From positions 1 to 7,826 of the forward strand of contig JAJZGH010000227.1 in assembly GCA_021798635.1 (NCBI GenBank): DNA of 7,826 nt, written 5' to 3'. The notes under the pieces were generated by a model. That model did no database searches, was not told where the DNA came from, and worked only from the letters and a program-made list of their open reading frames with translations. Source of the stretch: Planctomycetota bacterium (GTDB taxonomy: Bacteria > Planctomycetota > Phycisphaerae > WQYP01). Each line of letters opens with the position of its first letter. Position 1 is the first letter of the stretch. Made by a program: the position numbers and the translations under genes. This document shows, in pieces, positions 2,538 through 7,817 of the stretch.

Positions 2538-2712
2538 GCGGCGGCCCGATTAGAGCAGAGACAGGAGAGAGTTGAAAAGAGAGCAATTCGGCTGGAACAT
2601 AAGATGGGCTGTCGCCGAACAATTTTCCCCTCCTGCGGTCTACGATCCACTCCCTGCTATCGAGCCTCAATAGCGCGAATGTGATATTTGATATTTGTGA
2701 AGCCCTGCGTTT

Positions 2713-2785
2713 ATCCGCGTGATCAGGGTAATCCGCGGTCTTTTTATCGGGGACACAACGGGATTGAACCGCGGATTACGCGGAT
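2713..2785. repeat. Imperfect inverted repeat of the GCGGATTACGCGGAT phrase
   Basis: The right arm, ACCGCGGATTACGCGGAT (2768-2785), is the exact reverse complement of the left arm (2713-2739) once a 9-base insertion in the left arm is removed: ATCCGCG, then TGATCAGGG, then TAATCCGCGGT. The arms are separated by 28 bases. As RNA they could form an 18-bp stem with a 9-base bulge. No T-run follows the right arm, so this is a repeat rather than an intrinsic terminator. Confidence 0.65.
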
Positions 2786-2798
2786 AGGAGGAGGTGGT

Positions 2799-2825
2799 TT
2801 GCAAACCGAGGATTTACGGTAGAAT
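2799..2825 (+). promoter_or_regulatory. Candidate promoter for the first RHS tip gene
   Basis: TTGCAA (2799-2804), a 15-base spacer and TAGAAT (2820-2825) form a possible sigma-70-like promoter. The spacer is short. The -10 ends 41 bases before the ATG at 2867, and AGGA at 2856-2859 gives a seven-base ribosome-binding spacing. The arrangement resembles that in front of the second RHS tip gene. Confidence 0.35.
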
Positions 2826-2866
2826 GGCGATACCATCATCAGGCGGATTGTGATCAGGAAACCCGC

Positions 2867-3751
2867 ATGGTTGCATTGCACGAACAATTTCACCCCAACG
2901 GCACGCCGTCGCGGTTACAGGGGACAGGTTACGGGTTACAGCGGGACGGGGAAACTGTGGACGTTTGCAATCTTCATGGCCCGCGGACCACGGATCAAAA
3001 CTTTGGCAGTTCCGATGGCTTGTTCATTGATCCGTGCTCATTGATATTTGAGCGCAGCGCCGGTGCCAATGAAATTATCTTCTGCGGCTACCGGTACGAT
3101 CCGGAAGCAGAACTCTATTACGTCCGTAATCGCAGCTGCAACGCCGCGCTGGGCCGCTGGCTGCAGCGAGATCCAATTGGATACCAAGGCGGCGTGAGCT
3201 TGTACGAGTACGTTAAGTCAATGGTGGAGCGAAATGCCGATCCGAGCGGGCTGAGGGCCGAGTTACCCGGCGTACAGCCCCCGGTTCTTTCCAAGACGGG
3301 AAGGCGCCACCCGCTTTCGGACGGCCGATATTACCAAAACTTTCATTATACCCAGGCCTTGGGAGTCGTCATCACCAGCGGTGATACGCCAAGCAACCAG
3401 AAATTTTTCCAGCTCGCGGAATCGCTCCTACACGGACTCACAAAGCTCTCCGGAGTCGGCGAGATACTCACGGATATGGCCAAGTCAATTACTGACAACG
3501 GCGATTATCAGATACCCTTCCTAGGGACGGCCTTTCCCGAGGTAACGAAAGTCGTCTTCTGCAAGACCGGAAAGGTTCAGTCGGTTACGTTGAAAGAATG
3601 GAGGAACACGCAGTGGGAGTGGGATACAAGCCTACATGGTCAGATGGGCGGTGGCTTTGTCCTCAGTGGCGGTGAGGACCAAGACCGGGAGTTCTTCAAG
3701 TCGCTCCTGGACACGCTGAAAGAGTTGGTCAAATCGGCTGGCGGGGAGTAG
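2867..3751 (+). CDS. Orphan RHS tip 1: RHS core end fused to an unknown C-terminal domain
   Basis: A 294-residue protein. Residues 72-129 are the conserved end of an RHS/YD-repeat core: GYRYDPEAELYYVRNR, then LGRWLQRDPIGYQGG, then a degenerate NADPSG. Complete RHS proteins exceed about 1000 residues; here the shell is absent. Residues 1-65 are not RHS-like and are largely composed of dispersed-repeat DNA, including the 72-bp element. After DPSG comes a 165-residue variable domain (130-294) that I do not recognise. It contains HPLSDGRYYQNFHYTQALG and a charged helical end (FFKSLLDTLKELVKSAGGE). In RHS systems this variable tip is usually a toxin, but no nuclease or other catalytic motif is evident here. 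AGGA sits seven bases before the ATG. The stop lies 3 bases before the next ATG, implying coupled translation. It may be a displaced tip awaiting recombination, a small expressed protein, or a pseudogene remnant. Confidence 0.72.
   Translation: MVALHEQFHPNGTPSRLQGTGYGLQRDGETVDVCNLHGPRTTDQNFGSSDGLFIDPCSLIFERSAGANEIIFCGYRYDPEAELYYVRNRSCNAALGRWLQRDPIGYQGGVSLYEYVKSMVERNADPSGLRAELPGVQPPVLSKTGRRHPLSDGRYYQNFHYTQALGVVITSGDTPSNQKFFQLAESLLHGLTKLSGVGEILTDMAKSITDNGDYQIPFLGTAFPEVTKVVFCKTGKVQSVTLKEWRNTQWEWDTSLHGQMGGGFVLSGGEDQDREFFKSLLDTLKELVKSAGGE
2991..3062 (+). repeat. 72-bp element, copy 1
   Basis: This segment aligns without gaps to 5731-5802 with 56 of 72 identical bases. It is framed by an inverted pair, GGATCAA at 2992-2998 and TTGATCC at 3027-3033, and ends in AGCGCAGCGCCG, shared exactly by both copies. 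The element lies in the same reading frame in both RHS tip genes. The 16 differences fall 2, 6 and 8 at codon positions 1, 2 and 3, which shows no strong protein-level constraint. Confidence 0.75.
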
Positions 3752-3754
3752 TGG

Positions 3755-5122
3755 ATGGCAAATTGCTGTGATCCATTTTTCGGCATTGTGAAGTCAAGAA
3801 CCCCTGCACTGGAGATCAGGAGGCGTCCCATCCCGGATCAGGGTGAGTTCATTGTCGTTACTTCGCTTCTGCTGTTCCTCGCTGTGCCGTGCCATCGTGC
3901 CGCCGCGATCAACGGAGTCTATCCGGTTCGCGATGTGAGACCTCGCGTCGTGTGCTCGGGTGGGGCGGTGTTGAAACACATTCTTACGCTTCGATCGCAT
4001 ACGCGGGCGCGGCTTATACCTGGGATCGTGTGGACCGGCCCACGGCAAATTGTGGCCGAAGACTCGTTGTCGCGACTGGTGCGGTGGAATTTCTCTGGAA
4101 AGGTCGTACAAAATGTTTCGAAACCGGTCCATACGAGCCCCGGCGGGATAACGCTCGGATTATTCAAATCGCTGGGCGGGGCCGTGTCCGCATCGCTGGT
4201 TTCCAATGGCCCCAATCGCAACACCGCGCTGAAGCTGGATATACTTTCCGCACAAGCCCTTTCCGCGGGATCACGTATATCGGGACGGGAGTTGAGGTCA
4301 GTGAGTGTGCCAGACTATGGCTTGGAAGGGAAACTGAATTTTTTTTCGCTCGTTGTCCCACCAAGAGCCGCTTGGCTAGCCACCATACCGGCAGGGCCTG
4401 CCGCGCCAGGCTCTCGAATAAGACTGTGGCGGTTCGGGACCGGTAAACCATTAAGATGGTCTGTCCGCCTGCTAGAGCCAGAAAACAGAGGCTTTGCGAC
4501 TGACGATGGAAGTTACCTGGCGTGGGTTTCGTTCGGCCATTGGGTACGGATGCTGCGGGTACGAGGTCCCGGTCACGGGTTCACCAAGGTGCATGTGATT
4601 GGGCCCGACCTGCAGTACGGCGCGTTTTCCCCTGACGGGCGGATAATGGTTCTGGAGGCCGGTGGCACCAGTTCGATCTTGGGAGGAAAGGTGCAATTGA
4701 TCTCGTTGCGAAGTGATTCGCCCGCTCGGGAGCGGGTTCTTGGATTGTGGGGGCGGGCCTACAGGGCTGTGCCCGTCTGCCCGCCCGCGTTCTCGCAAAA
4801 CGGAAAGCTGCTAGTGGCCGCCACGCTAAGACTCGGCTCGAAATGGCCCGTCGGGATTTGGGTAATCTCCGGAAGGAGCTTCACAACGCTCTGTTACTTG
4901 GGGATACGCAACGATTTGCCCGAAAGGATTGCATTTTCTACCGGAAGGTCAGAGCTTGCCGTGCAGTGCTGGTATCACGTATTCGTTTTTCGATTGCCCA
5001 AGCGATTCCCCTCGCGCTCACAAAGGATTTTTCACGAGCCGAAATGGTTCAACATGTGGACAAGTCCAAAGACTATAATGTTTCCCCCGCAACGTACTGC
5101 GGCACAAAGCAACGCTAAGTAG
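3755..5122 (+). CDS. Probable exported beta-propeller (WD40/PD40-like) protein of unknown function
   Basis: A 455-residue protein. A hydrophobic stretch, FIVVTSLLLFLAVPC, followed by HRAAA around residues 32-51 looks like a signal peptide or membrane anchor after an unusually long basic N-terminal region. The rest is rich in beta-strands and has repeated propeller-blade signatures: AFSPDGRIMVLEAGG, AFSQNGKLLVAA and AFSTGRSELAVQCW, plus weaker ones such as DGSYLAWVSFGHWVRMLRV. I see no catalytic motif. The ATG lies 3 bases after the stop of RHS tip 1, with GGGGAG at 3743-3748 overlapping the RHS end, so translation is probably coupled. That is the position where RHS systems keep the immunity gene, though immunity proteins are usually much smaller and an exported propeller would be unusual. 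It could instead be an accessory or an unrelated cargo gene. No neighbour identifies a ligand. Confidence 0.7.
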   Translation: MANCCDPFFGIVKSRTPALEIRRRPIPDQGEFIVVTSLLLFLAVPCHRAAAINGVYPVRDVRPRVVCSGGAVLKHILTLRSHTRARLIPGIVWTGPRQIVAEDSLSRLVRWNFSGKVVQNVSKPVHTSPGGITLGLFKSLGGAVSASLVSNGPNRNTALKLDILSAQALSAGSRISGRELRSVSVPDYGLEGKLNFFSLVVPPRAAWLATIPAGPAAPGSRIRLWRFGTGKPLRWSVRLLEPENRGFATDDGSYLAWVSFGHWVRMLRVRGPGHGFTKVHVIGPDLQYGAFSPDGRIMVLEAGGTSSILGGKVQLISLRSDSPARERVLGLWGRAYRAVPVCPPAFSQNGKLLVAATLRLGSKWPVGIWVISGRSFTTLCYLGIRNDLPERIAFSTGRSELAVQCWYHVFVFRLPKRFPSRSQRIFHEPKWFNMWTSPKTIMFPPQRTAAQSNAK

Positions 5123-5214
5123 GAACGAAGAATCATTACAACGCAATCAAGTGTCGTAAATCACTCAATAAGCATGGTTTGGCGGTAACTGTTGCCGCAT
5201 TTATGAGCATGGCG

Positions 5215-5235
5215 CGGCACAGTGGTGTCGTGCCG
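5215..5235. repeat. Small inverted repeat CGGCAC...GTGCCG
   Basis: Perfect 6-bp arms, CGGCAC at 5215-5220 and GTGCCG at 5230-5235, enclose nine bases. There is no T-run after it. It may be a fragment of a dispersed palindromic repeat. Confidence 0.4.
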
Positions 5236-5427
5236 TCCAAACTTTCTCCGGCGCGCGTGCGGCCATTGCCGGGGAAGGGGGCTTCCTCGACAGCACCCGC
5301 CGCGCTCCGGCTGCCGCCCCGGCGATTGCAATCTCCTCGACGGCCGCCGGGATAAAGATATTTTCCGTCGGGAAGCTATCCCAGCGGCGGTGGAAGTAAT
5401 GAAGCTGTCGGAGTCTGGGAGACAAGT

Positions 5428-5461
5428 GGCGGCGTGTGGCCGCCTTGCGAAGGCAGTTTTT
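5428..5461 (+). terminator. Weak terminator-like hairpins followed by T5
   Basis: Two overlapping, mutually exclusive stems are present: GGCGGC/GCCGCC (5428-5433 with 5439-5444) and GCCTT/AAGGC (5442-5446 with 5450-5454). The second is followed by AG and five T residues (5457-5461). A 5-bp stem is short, so termination would be weak. It lies between module 1 and the promoter of module 2, where a terminator is expected. Confidence 0.3.
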
Positions 5462-5485
5462 GTGAACTGGTGTTGTGAATTGGCT

Positions 5486-5513
5486 TTGCGATCAGCATCG
5501 GGCGGGTTAGAAT
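5486..5513 (+). promoter_or_regulatory. Candidate sigma-70-type promoter for RHS module 2
   Basis: TTGCGA (5486-5491), a 16-base spacer and TAGAAT (5508-5513) match the consensus at 4 of 6 and 5 of 6 positions. Transcription would start near 5520, giving a leader of about 30 bases to the ATG at 5550. This is the best promoter match I found in the window. Confidence 0.5.
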
Positions 5514-5549
5514 CTGTGCTTTGATAGAACTGTCCTTTCAGGCAGGCTT

Positions 5550-6821
5550 ATGGTCGCGACGGTTGAAACAATTTCGGAACCAGAGCTGCACAGCAAGCGC
5601 CGCAGTACCTCCGTTTCCTCGGCTCCCTCCGTGGTGAAAAAAAGCGGTTCAATGAATTCTGAACCCGGAATCTGGAACACGTTGATTCACAGGGAGGTAG
5701 CGGAGGTAAACGGAGGACCAACGATAATCACGGATCAAAGATTCGGAAATTCCGAAGATTTGTTCCTTGATCATTATTCATTGACCATTGAGCGCAGCGC
5801 CGACAGCTCCGGAAACGCACTGGGCTTCGCAGCAGACAGCGTGATCACAGAGTACCTGTACAATCAGCAATATTACGACGTGATTTCCGGCCAGTATTAC
5901 ATGCGTGCGAGAAACTACGATCCCGCCACCGGGACATTCACCCAGCAGGACACAATCTCCATCGCCCCCGGCGACACCGCCAACGCGAACCTCTTCCTCT
6001 TCGCCGGCGCGGACCCGGTCAATATGTCTGATCCCAGCGGGCATGATCTGATGGAGACGTTAGGGAGTATTGCGATCCAGAGCATGCTGGGCTCGATCAT
6101 CAGCCCGGTCGTCGCGCCATTCGCCAGCGATGCGGCAGCGCTTCTCATACCGCCGGCGTTGATGATGGCGTTGGAAGCGGCAGGTTCCCCGGACGCCGTG
6201 GAACTCGGAGTAGACGGATCGGTCGGCGGCCAGTTCGAGGGAGTTGGCGGGTTTATCGCTGGCGGCCTCAGCCTGCTCGCGTCAACACATACCGGAAATG
6301 CAGCGCTTTACGCGTCCGGCGGCGGTGGGTTCTCGTTATTTGGTGGAGGGAACGGACTCTCCGGCGGCATAGGCGCGTCGGTTGGCCTGGTGTGGAACAC
6401 GCCGCGGTCGGGCGACTTCGTAACCAACAAATTGGAGGTATCCGTGCCCTTCGGCGTGCTCCCGGCGTCTTTCCGGGCGAAGGTTGAGAGGGATCTGGCG
6501 GAAAGTGCAGCGTCGTCGAGTTTTCTCACGGATATGGAAGCCAACAGGCTCGTCGGCGCGGGCTGGACCAGCACCAAGGTTGACAGCTACCAATGGCAAG
6601 TGATGAAAGACGCGTTCGCGCGGATAAGCTGGTTGACCAGCCGGCTTGACAGCATGAATGTGAGCCTGTTTGGGTCGGTGGGAAATCCCGGCGGGGACAT
6701 TGGTGTGTCGTTTGGCGTTGATCTGCTCGGCGCGGAAACGGAAGGCACCACAGGTGGAGTCTCGCTCGGTTATATGTGGGGCCATCAGATAGCCCCGCAA
6801 CAGTCGGTCTACCTCGGTTGA
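5550..6821 (+). CDS. Orphan RHS tip 2: RHS core end with a glycine-rich C-terminal domain
   Basis: A 423-residue protein. Residues 102-164 are the end of an RHS core of a different subtype from tip 1: YLYNQQYYDVISGQYYMRAR, NYDPATGTFTQQD, then FAGADPVNMSDPSGHDL. The approximately 100 residues before it are not RHS-like. They include DNA-level repeats and the 72-bp element, so the original long shell is missing. After DPSG comes a 259-residue variable domain. A hydrophobic stretch around 178-210 could insert in a membrane. It is followed by glycine-rich, strand-like sequence (SVGGQFEGVGGFIAGGLSLL, GGGGFSLFGGG, SGGIGASVGLVWNTP) and a matching end (GGVSLGYMWGHQIAPQQSVY). I do not recognise a catalytic toxin motif; a membrane-active tip is one possible reading. 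The start is uncertain: only weak AGG motifs precede the ATG, and the frame upstream is closed by TAG at 5508-5510. Its partner gene starts 45 bases downstream. Confidence 0.75.
   Translation: MVATVETISEPELHSKRRSTSVSSAPSVVKKSGSMNSEPGIWNTLIHREVAEVNGGPTIITDQRFGNSEDLFLDHYSLTIERSADSSGNALGFAADSVITEYLYNQQYYDVISGQYYMRARNYDPATGTFTQQDTISIAPGDTANANLFLFAGADPVNMSDPSGHDLMETLGSIAIQSMLGSIISPVVAPFASDAAALLIPPALMMALEAAGSPDAVELGVDGSVGGQFEGVGGFIAGGLSLLASTHTGNAALYASGGGGFSLFGGGNGLSGGIGASVGLVWNTPRSGDFVTNKLEVSVPFGVLPASFRAKVERDLAESAASSSFLTDMEANRLVGAGWTSTKVDSYQWQVMKDAFARISWLTSRLDSMNVSLFGSVGNPGGDIGVSFGVDLLGAETEGTTGGVSLGYMWGHQIAPQQSVYLG
5608..5716. repeat. Imperfect inverted repeat inside the 5' part of RHS tip gene 2
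   Basis: The left arm at 5608-5630 (CCTCCGTTTCCTCGGCTCCC followed by TCC) pairs imperfectly with the right arm at 5693-5716, whose reverse complement begins CCTCCGTTTACCTCCGCTAC. Such CCTCCGTT phrases look like dispersed intergenic repeats, supporting the view that the first part of this reading frame was not originally RHS coding sequence. Confidence 0.5.
5731..5802 (+). repeat. 72-bp element, copy 2
   Basis: This copy matches 2991-3062 at 56 of 72 bases. It contains a perfect palindrome, TTCGGAA-A-TTCCGAA (5742-5756), degraded in copy 1, inside the outer pair GGATCAA (5732-5738) and TTGATC (5767-5772). Like copy 1 it ends in AGCGCAGCGCCG, shortly before the RHS core. Confidence 0.75.
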
Positions 6822-6866: not shown

Positions 6867-7817
6867 ATGAAATGGTGGCAGGCTTCACTCGCTGCTATCC
6901 TGTATATCGCCATGTTCACTACGGTTGAGGTCGGCTGGCACTGGTATATCTCGACCGGGCTGCCGCTGGCGGCCCTCATGCGGCACGTCTATCTTCACAC
7001 TAACCGCTTCGGCTACCTAATGTTTTTCAGCTTTCCCGATGGTCTCCTGCCGGTCGGGGCCCTTTCGATGGGCATAGGGTTAATTGGCAGGCGGCAGCGC
7101 GTGCTTTTTGCGGTCGTTCATACCCTTTTAGCCGGTGCCGTCACGGTGGCGACGTTGCCACTGTACACTCATTGGCTTCATCCGGTGCCGGTACCGCGGG
7201 AATGGCCTCTTTATCCATGGGGATGGAGGGGCGTGTTAACGCCTGCGGCCATCATTGACCTCGGCGTTACCACGCTTTTTGCCGTCATAGCGCAGCACAA
7301 CCTCCGCCCTGGCGCCGGCAGGAAGGTGCAAGGCCGAGCCTTGCTGGGGGCTGAGGAGCGTGTGGCCGGCGAGCCATCCCCCACGCAACCAGAGCACGAT
7401 GATTACAGGTCCGATGCGCTACGTGCCATACAGATCAAACAGGAGAAGCATTGCAGTATTCAGAAAGCCGTTGAGCTTGTCGATCAGGAGAGAATGGCGC
7501 GCCGGCGGCCCCAAGCCGGAACGCAAGGGGATGCGGGCTTAAATGCGAGCGGGGAGCCGGTGCTGGGGCGGGCCAACGCTGGCGGCGGGGACTTACCGGA
7601 TCACGGATCGCCGACTTACACAAGCCGCCAAATATGGGCGGTCATCCGGCTTATGCGGGTGAGGGGCTGGGGCGTGGAGCAGGCAGCCAAGAGTTTTCAT
7701 ATTCCGCCCGAGGTGTTGCGCAATACTGTCCGGAAAATGGTAACACAAAACCCGCGAAGATTTAACACAATCTTAACTTGCGCATTTGCGCCGGATATGT
7801 TCTACTGTCAGTCATGA
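6867..7817 (+). CDS. Four-helix membrane protein with cytoplasmic HTH-like tail
   Basis: A 316-residue protein, not assigned to a family. Four hydrophobic segments fit membrane helices: about 6-27, 52-73, 79-100 and 124-143. From 146 on the chain is hydrophilic, with a long linker rich in G, P, A and charged residues (150-180 and 212-248). The tail has two similar helical segments, YRSDALRAIQIKQEKHCSIQ (180-199, continuing KAVELVDQ) and YTSRQIWAVIRLMRVRGWGV (251-270, continuing EQAAKSFHIPPEVLRNTVRKM). The second looks like a simple helix-turn-helix of the psq/transposase type. The last about 20 residues (TILTCAFAPDMFYCQS) look unconserved and overlap regulatory-looking DNA. AAGGAG (6853-6858) lies eight bases before the ATG, a strong ribosome-binding site. 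It starts 45 bases after RHS tip 2, the immunity position; multi-pass membrane proteins are known as immunity factors against membrane-acting toxins. A one-component membrane-bound regulator is the alternative. Confidence 0.8.
   Translation: MKWWQASLAAILYIAMFTTVEVGWHWYISTGLPLAALMRHVYLHTNRFGYLMFFSFPDGLLPVGALSMGIGLIGRRQRVLFAVVHTLLAGAVTVATLPLYTHWLHPVPVPREWPLYPWGWRGVLTPAAIIDLGVTTLFAVIAQHNLRPGAGRKVQGRALLGAEERVAGEPSPTQPEHDDYRSDALRAIQIKQEKHCSIQKAVELVDQERMARRRPQAGTQGDAGLNASGEPVLGRANAGGGDLPDHGSPTYTSRQIWAVIRLMRVRGWGVEQAAKSFHIPPEVLRNTVRKMVTQNPRRFNTILTCAFAPDMFYCQS
7741..7777 (+). promoter_or_regulatory. Phased TAAC repeats, Pho-box-like operator
   Basis: TAACACAA occurs at 7741-7748 and again at 7763-7770, exactly 22 bases apart. 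A third TAAC starts at 7774, 11 bases after the second. The core TTTAACACAATCTTAACTTG (7761-7780) has two YTTAAC half-sites one helical turn apart, the layout of PhoB/PhoP/SphR-type boxes. A possible -10, TATGTT, lies at 7796-7801. The site overlaps the end of the membrane-protein gene and would serve a gene starting at or beyond the right edge. Confidence 0.35.

Follow-up and report, generated by a model that had tools for sequence, protein, structure and literature searches.

The window analyzed here is a 7,826-nt stretch of DNA from a Planctomycetota bacterium (contig JAJZGH010000227.1, forward strand) that carries two short RHS genes, hereafter called gene 1 and gene 2. As in orphan rhs-CT genes, both have an RHS-associated core just 5' of a variable tip and no N-terminal shell. 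The longest direct repeat of the window, 74 nt in length, has one copy in each gene and ends where the RHS core begins, and its sequence suggests a translated leader that is common to a family of such genes. The features of the two genes are as follows.

2798..2825, + strand: promoter-like site of gene 1, TTTGCA-16-TAGAAT, 41 nt 5' of the ATG (promoter scan)
2867..3751, + strand: gene 1, predicted stand-alone RHS-tip gene, 294 aa (open reading frame, ORF; TIGR03696 at residues 66-129, E 6.6e-14)
2867..2884, + strand: gene 1 start box, ATGGTTGCATTGCACGAA (MVALHE), from the start-box pattern
2989..3062, + strand: repeat copy 1, assigned by repeat search and coding constraint to the 3' part of a putative translated leader (..TTDQNFGSSDGLFIDPCSLIFERSA)
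3063..3253, + strand: gene 1 RHS core, type RDPIGYQGG, entered at GANEII (TIGR03696; entry-point comparison)
3254..3748, + strand: gene 1 variable tip; a 97% identical tip occurs in protein P0051 behind another leader, with a core less alike
5486..5513, + strand: promoter-like site of gene 2, TTGCGA-16-TAGAAT, 36 nt 5' of the ATG (promoter scan; TANAAT survey)
5550..6821, + strand: gene 2, predicted stand-alone RHS-tip gene, 423 aa (ORF; TIGR03696 at residues 98-165, E 4.8e-16)
5550..5567, + strand: gene 2 start box, ATGGTCGCGACGGTTGAA (MVATVE), from the start-box pattern
5729..5802, + strand: repeat copy 2, assigned by repeat search and coding constraint to the 3' part of a putative translated leader (..ITDQRFGNSEDLFLDHYSLTIERSA)
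5803..6044, + strand: gene 2 RHS core, type GDTANANLFLFAGADP, entered at DSSGNALGF (TIGR03696; entry-point comparison)
6045..6818, + strand: gene 2 variable tip (related proteins P0002-P0008)

The two copies of the repeat (2989-3062 and 5729-5802) are 78% identical over 74 nt without gaps, each lies in frame within an ORF (2867-3751 and 5550-6821), and the RHS core TIGR03696 comes next in each case, much as the initial annotation had described. A 72-nt version of the repeat contains 16 differences, which fall 2, 6 and 8 times on codon positions 1, 2 and 3. This count was confirmed, but the earlier deduction that such a spread indicates a DNA-level repeat failed, as the changes are coding-like over many copies. 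In the window pair itself, changes affect 5.5 of 12.7 synonymous sites and 10.5 of 53.3 non-synonymous ones. The inverted pairs from which a foldable or protein-bound element had been proposed are present, but the hairpins predicted for the DNA beat shuffled sequence by only about 2 standard deviations (z -1.97 and -1.78). A DNA hairpin or protein-bound element was rejected for this weakness, and the strong palindrome of a Rickettsia-type palindromic element is not seen. The mir-5360 match that Rfam gave for the minus strand of copy 2, at 27 bits versus a gathering score of 79, was put down to chance.

The genome survey comprised the window and six related Planctomycetota metagenome-assembled genomes (MAGs; titled Planctomycetota or Phycisphaerales, G001-G006). 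A leader-alignment scan with one genome per species gave 26 loci in six MAGs; within the family, the leader profile matches 9 of 28 genomes and the start-box pattern described below matches 16 of 28. A blastn search of the related genomes with the 74-nt element gave 70 matches at E up to 0.1, of which many are partial. The 3' end of the element, searched as a DNA pattern with at most 3 mismatches, was found at 78 places in the six genomes versus 1 for the reversed pattern. Because the element is present in all six related genomes, the repeat is far beyond chance. Protein searches with genes 1 and 2, restricted to homologues of 0.55-1.75 times the query length, returned mostly short RHS proteins for both. 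By a loose pattern, the element peptide or its end was present in 59 of the 168 homologues listed (for one query, 120 of its 183 matches), all of them short proteins. A plasmid search with gene 2 gave 29 records, all below 60% identity and none reaching 80% coverage.

Seventy-seven distinct copies of the 3' end were read, two of them the window's own. RHS sequence lies downstream of 34 copies, in the frame of the element in 34 out of 34, and the expectation that copies would be found upstream of other RHS tips in relatives was borne out. Element-like sequence (a score of at least 16, where shuffles reached 14) precedes the motif in 29 of these 34 copies and, among the other 43, in 14, leaving 29 short motif matches with no element-like sequence before them. 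Of the 43, copies 14 and 60 at least carry CANETIFCGYP in frame but fell below the cut-off. No copy was recognized in an unrelated gene, the 43 copies without RHS not having been annotated one by one. The pairwise ratio of non-synonymous to synonymous change (pN/pS) over 72 nt was 0.52 in the ORF frame (bootstrap 0.43-0.63, 33 copies) and 1.02 and 1.09 in the other frames; restricting it to the 48 nt not covered by the search pattern gave 0.57 (0.47-0.66) versus 0.91 and 1.05. The pairs behind these values, and behind the tip and breakpoint comparisons below, are not independent of each other. Insofar as the frame is locked in all 34 copies and constraint is seen mainly in the ORF frame, the element is, on this evidence, a translated segment under constraint and not merely a DNA-level repeat.

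RHS core sequence was located at 141 places in the six genomes (E up to 0.001), of which 134 were read with their flanks and seven were left out. The ORFs were classed by the depth of the core as full-length (more than 1000 codons, n = 11), intermediate (400-1000 codons, n = 15) or short (nearer, n = 108), and the 91 short ORFs with a closed 5' end were used for all counts on short ORFs. The leader profile matches 29 of these 91, one of the 15 intermediate ORFs and none of the 11 full-length ORFs, three of which were not read to the 5' end. The element as an ordinary part of full-length RHS genes was dropped on this count. N-termini could be read in eight of the 11 full-length ORFs and are unlike those of the short ones (MVQAKAK.., MAANLNNC.., MSYYYSPG.. 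and, with an uncertain start, MSYIPPPGPP); two of the 11 match the start-box pattern inside the gene, 523 and 1129 codons before the core. The leader-profile match is absent from 62 of the 91 short ORFs, so the tip does not need the element. In element-bearing copies the leader is about 50-105 codons long, and it has no Pfam match.

A start box, ATGGTYGC...GAA (protein MVAxxE), is common to 55 of the 91 short ORFs. This strict search replaced a looser one (71 of 91), some of whose picks lay inside RHS or the element. The pattern occurs at 47 places in the six genomes and the reversed pattern at none. From 83 places listed, 63 distinct start-box loci were read: 41 run in frame into RHS, six are followed by RHS past the ORF in one frame or another, and in 16 none was found, many of these resembling decayed leaders or bare tips by eye. 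At one locus (L233, G004:C386) a start-box leader runs for 354 aa into a tip that by eye is like that of gene 2, with no RHS core recognized. A TANAAT box lies upstream of 31 of 48 non-redundant start-box genes versus 3 of 121 control ORFs, which came from the same loci, began at the first ATG, had at least 200 aa and did not match RHS; the box together with a -35-like hexamer was found for 15 of 48 versus 0 of 121. Within 2700-5850 of the window, three promoter-like sites were found versus 1.4 in shuffles.

The 3' end of the element is sharply bounded, with RHS sequence joined to it at about ten entry points. Among the 34 RHS-followed copies, 17 entry points are GANEII-like, four DAHGxTR-like, four RNRNY-like, two TDRNGN, two CQGMT and five single, and 18 tip groups occur among 23 closed proteins behind one leader end. 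Out of 74 tip pairs, 32 have no element in either protein and six are one gene met twice; 19 of the 36 usable pairs have tips at least 80% alike and served as the breakpoint set. In five of the 19, likeness drops by more than 0.2 from tip to core, placing the change inside the core. Among pairs with similar tips behind different cores, likeness was 0.93 in the tip and 0.37 in the core for P0119/P0125 (one of these five), 0.97 and 0.78 for P0050/P0051, and 0.95 and 0.71 for G003_C161/P0066. Four pairs (P0003/P0007, P0004/P0014, P0018/P0028 and P0043/P0134) lose their likeness exactly at the leader end, with core and tip equally alike, and the idea that tips swap partners only within the core was dropped for this reason. 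Two pairs are alike throughout, leader included, and the other eight, which include gene 1 with P0051 (0.97 in the tip and 0.78 in the core), are intermediate. Hybrids were also found: P0035 joins an N-terminal leader of the gene 2 type to the element and core type of gene 1, and P0044 joins the leader of gene 2 to the other core, after which the reading soon leaves RHS. Given that breakpoints vary among pairs and that leader/core hybrids occur, these comparisons indicate that leaders, cores and tips are all exchanged.

The leaders have the 7-nt periodicity of heptad repeats, modest in size (lags 7, 14 and 21) and missing from upstream and core DNA. The lag-7 excess was 0.154 around the 43 non-RHS copies, a value helped by the heptad-like nature of the searched motif itself, 0.044 in 54 leaders and -0.014 in 86 upstream and 134 core stretches. 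The 3' motif of the element is also found in intergenic repeats. Since the leaders share their periodicity with these intergenic motif copies, the element looks like heptad-repeat DNA turned coding sequence, which would be its presumed origin. Around the 43 non-RHS copies, the intergenic DNA of G001-G006 has repeats of the heptad words GATCACG, CATTGGT, GGTTCTA and TCGTTGT.

The sequences themselves show a gene family, a locked frame, constraint, signals for starts and promoter-like sites, and a mixing of modules. The explanation that we favor, with a probability of roughly 0.7, is that the 74-nt repeat forms the 3' portion of a translated leader in a multigene family of short stand-alone RHS-tip genes. 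In the proposed gene plan, a sigma-70-like promoter and the start box would be followed by a leader made partly of heptad-repeat DNA, by RHS sequence taken up from varying points, and by a variable tip. The window copies would then be related leaders standing before different cores through recombination of leaders, cores and tips, occurring partly within the RHS core, partly at the leader end and also in the leader, with duplication spreading the module. Homologous recombination is presumably the main mechanism. The leader module would serve as an expression head, supplying a detached RHS tip with promoter, start codon and open frame; the signals suggest that the short genes are expressed, and the leader peptide may have a role beyond keeping the frame open.

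Several points weigh against this explanation. The strict start box is missing from 36 of the 91 short ORFs, and the control ORFs in the promoter comparison are mechanical, with the first ATG taken as the start. Fourteen element-like 3'-end copies have no RHS recognized downstream. In nt 24-48 taken alone one wrong frame also falls below 1 (0.65), and the pN/pS bootstrap is optimistic, the pairs being related. AlphaFold predictions for the two genes have a mean predicted local distance difference test score (pLDDT) of 45 and 31, too poor for a leader fold. The breakpoint lies at the leader end in four of the 19 pairs, and the exact, recurrent boundary at GAGCGNAGCGCC before many entry points favors a special joint, for which homologous recombination alone is no explanation.

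A second and doubtful reading, offered tentatively, is that of a natural gene trap, in which an expression head (promoter, ATGGTYGC box, and heptad leader ending in GAGCGNAGCGCC) has been joined time and again, in frame, to silent RHS fragments entered at many different points, with new coding sequence born from intergenic heptads. The initial annotation had proposed that RHS tips are captured at the repeat, the end of the element being a joining or integration site that is cut and fused to incoming pieces of RHS core and tip. The part of this proposal that stood is the boundary itself: it is sharp before about ten entry points, four of the 19 similar-tip pairs lose likeness exactly at the leader end, the leader profile matches none of the 11 full-length genes, and the 3' motif is present in intergenic repeats too. 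Capture at that point is nevertheless unlikely, with coding constraint running across the element, five of the 19 pairs changing inside the core, 62 of the 91 short ORFs having no leader-profile match, and a weak hairpin. We consider it very improbable that the element is a mobile palindromic repeat inserting in frame into genes, as the Rickettsia palindromic elements do. The inverted pairs, the motif copies in intergenic DNA and the occurrence, in RHS cores of this group, of another short insert that is in frame and has two hairpins would suit such a repeat, but it should not track the reading frame in its constraint, keep to a position between start and RHS, fold with a z of only about -2, or go unrecognized in unrelated genes (copies without RHS not being annotated singly). 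Plain paralogy, in which an ancestral stand-alone RHS gene was duplicated and its cores and tips diverged with no module exchange, would fit the arrays of adjacent genes with like leaders (for example G002:C30), the common start box and promoter-like site and the two pairs alike in core and leader, but is extremely unlikely in view of the different core subtypes and entry points behind one leader end, the similar tips behind different cores and leaders, and the hybrids P0035 and P0044.

The short in-frame insert just mentioned is roughly 55 nt long (TTGAGGCAGGAGCCGAAATCCCGA..AGGAG..TCGGG, peptide RQEPKSR..) and occurs in 18 of the 134 RHS ORFs, mostly between the SLG and the RD/QDP part of the core (for example L202, G005:C39; L126, G003:C141; L175, G003:C50). 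Its DNA is nearly invariant in 11 aligned copies and has hairpins with AGGA loops, and a scan of three loci gave no Rfam match. Compared with the 72-bp repeat, this insert more closely resembles a genuine element at the DNA or RNA level.

Two further features lie beside the RHS genes of the window.

3755..5122, + strand: ORF of 455 aa directly 3' of gene 1 (PD40 propeller match below the cut-off; in the position of an immunity gene, a candidate only)
5345..5461, + strand: group II intron D1-D4-like piece 5' of gene 2 (RF02003, 34.8 bits versus a gathering score of 49, E 5.2e-5)

The ORF at 3755-5122 begins 3 nt after gene 1 and that at 6867-7817 begins 45 nt after gene 2, and no immunity family was found among the Pfam and NCBIfam matches for either. 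In the latter ORF the N-terminal half reads as hydrophobic and the C-terminal half as charged, with no Pfam or NCBIfam match. Full-length rhs genes are found near short genes at G001:C57 and G001:C53, and none lies within the 7.8-kb window. D1-D4-like pieces (RF02003) occur 63-88 nt 5' of RHS start boxes at four loci: the window (5345-5461), L139 (14517-14646), L225 (1589-1731) and L218 (1146-1269). Only the piece in L139 is above the gathering score (55.5 bits), and better-scoring D1-D4 and D5-D6 matches occur elsewhere in the genomes with such pieces. D5-D6 (RF00029) was not reported for the window at E up to 5 or for nine loci at E up to 1. With no D5-D6 reported at these cut-offs, a start module within a complete group II intron was rejected, and the piece was kept as a remnant. 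Two inverted stretches were seen by eye in the 5' leader of gene 2, at 5608-5632 (CCTCCGTTTCCTCGGCTCCCTCCGTG) and 5688-5716 (CACAGGGAGGTAGCGGAGGTAAACGGAGG). A word 5' of gene 1, CCGCGGATTACGCGGATA, has direct copies at 2505-2525 and 2766-2786 and an inverted one at 2722-2739.

Orphan RHS and contact-dependent inhibition (CDI) tips are usually viewed as silent stores of toxin diversity, for want of start signals. If the favored explanation is true, the presence of one kind of promoter-like site, start box and constrained leader on dozens of tips would imply expression of the store, and intergenic repeat DNA would have been recruited as coding sequence. One could then test for an intracellular role of the small proteins, for their export, or for a part in immunity-gene expression. 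Among the open-licence papers listed, none describes such a leader in Planctomycetota in its title or opening abstract lines.

Among known systems, Rickettsia palindromic elements are repeated DNA read in frame inside proteins. The element described here likewise appears to be translated in frame, but differs in its weak palindrome, its constraint in one frame and the lack of any copy recognized in unrelated genes. Heptamer repeats of intergenic DNA are known from cyanobacteria as short tandemly repeated repetitive sequences (STRR). A report on Beggiatoaceae describes TAACTGA heptamer repeats (PMC4679880). A 7-nt periodicity is likewise present in the intergenic copies here and, more weakly, in the leaders, but the latter lie within an open, constrained reading frame. 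Polymorphic toxins are described as including standalone cassettes and lineage-specific N-termini, with a conserved N-terminus and a highly variable C-terminus as here (PMC3482391); the present leader differs in having no Pfam match and consisting partly of heptad-repeat DNA. For Salmonella rhs, a conserved internal promoter, P2, with a CTG start is reported to serve main and orphan tips (PMC7043789). The tips there have a promoter of their own, as the promoter-like sites here suggest, but the Salmonella promoter is inside the conserved region before PxxxxDPxGL, whereas the sites here precede a distinct non-RHS leader whose start box has an ATG. The nearest parallels in form are the orphan rhs-CT and cdiA-CT genes, described as short detached 3' ends, often arrayed and recombining, in which a conserved piece is followed by a variable tip (PMC3967940, PMC3150448). 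Such orphans are usually without translation initiation signals in the same accounts; both window genes carry such signals in their sequence, and a large set of the genes described here shares a promoter-like site, a start box and a predicted translated leader.

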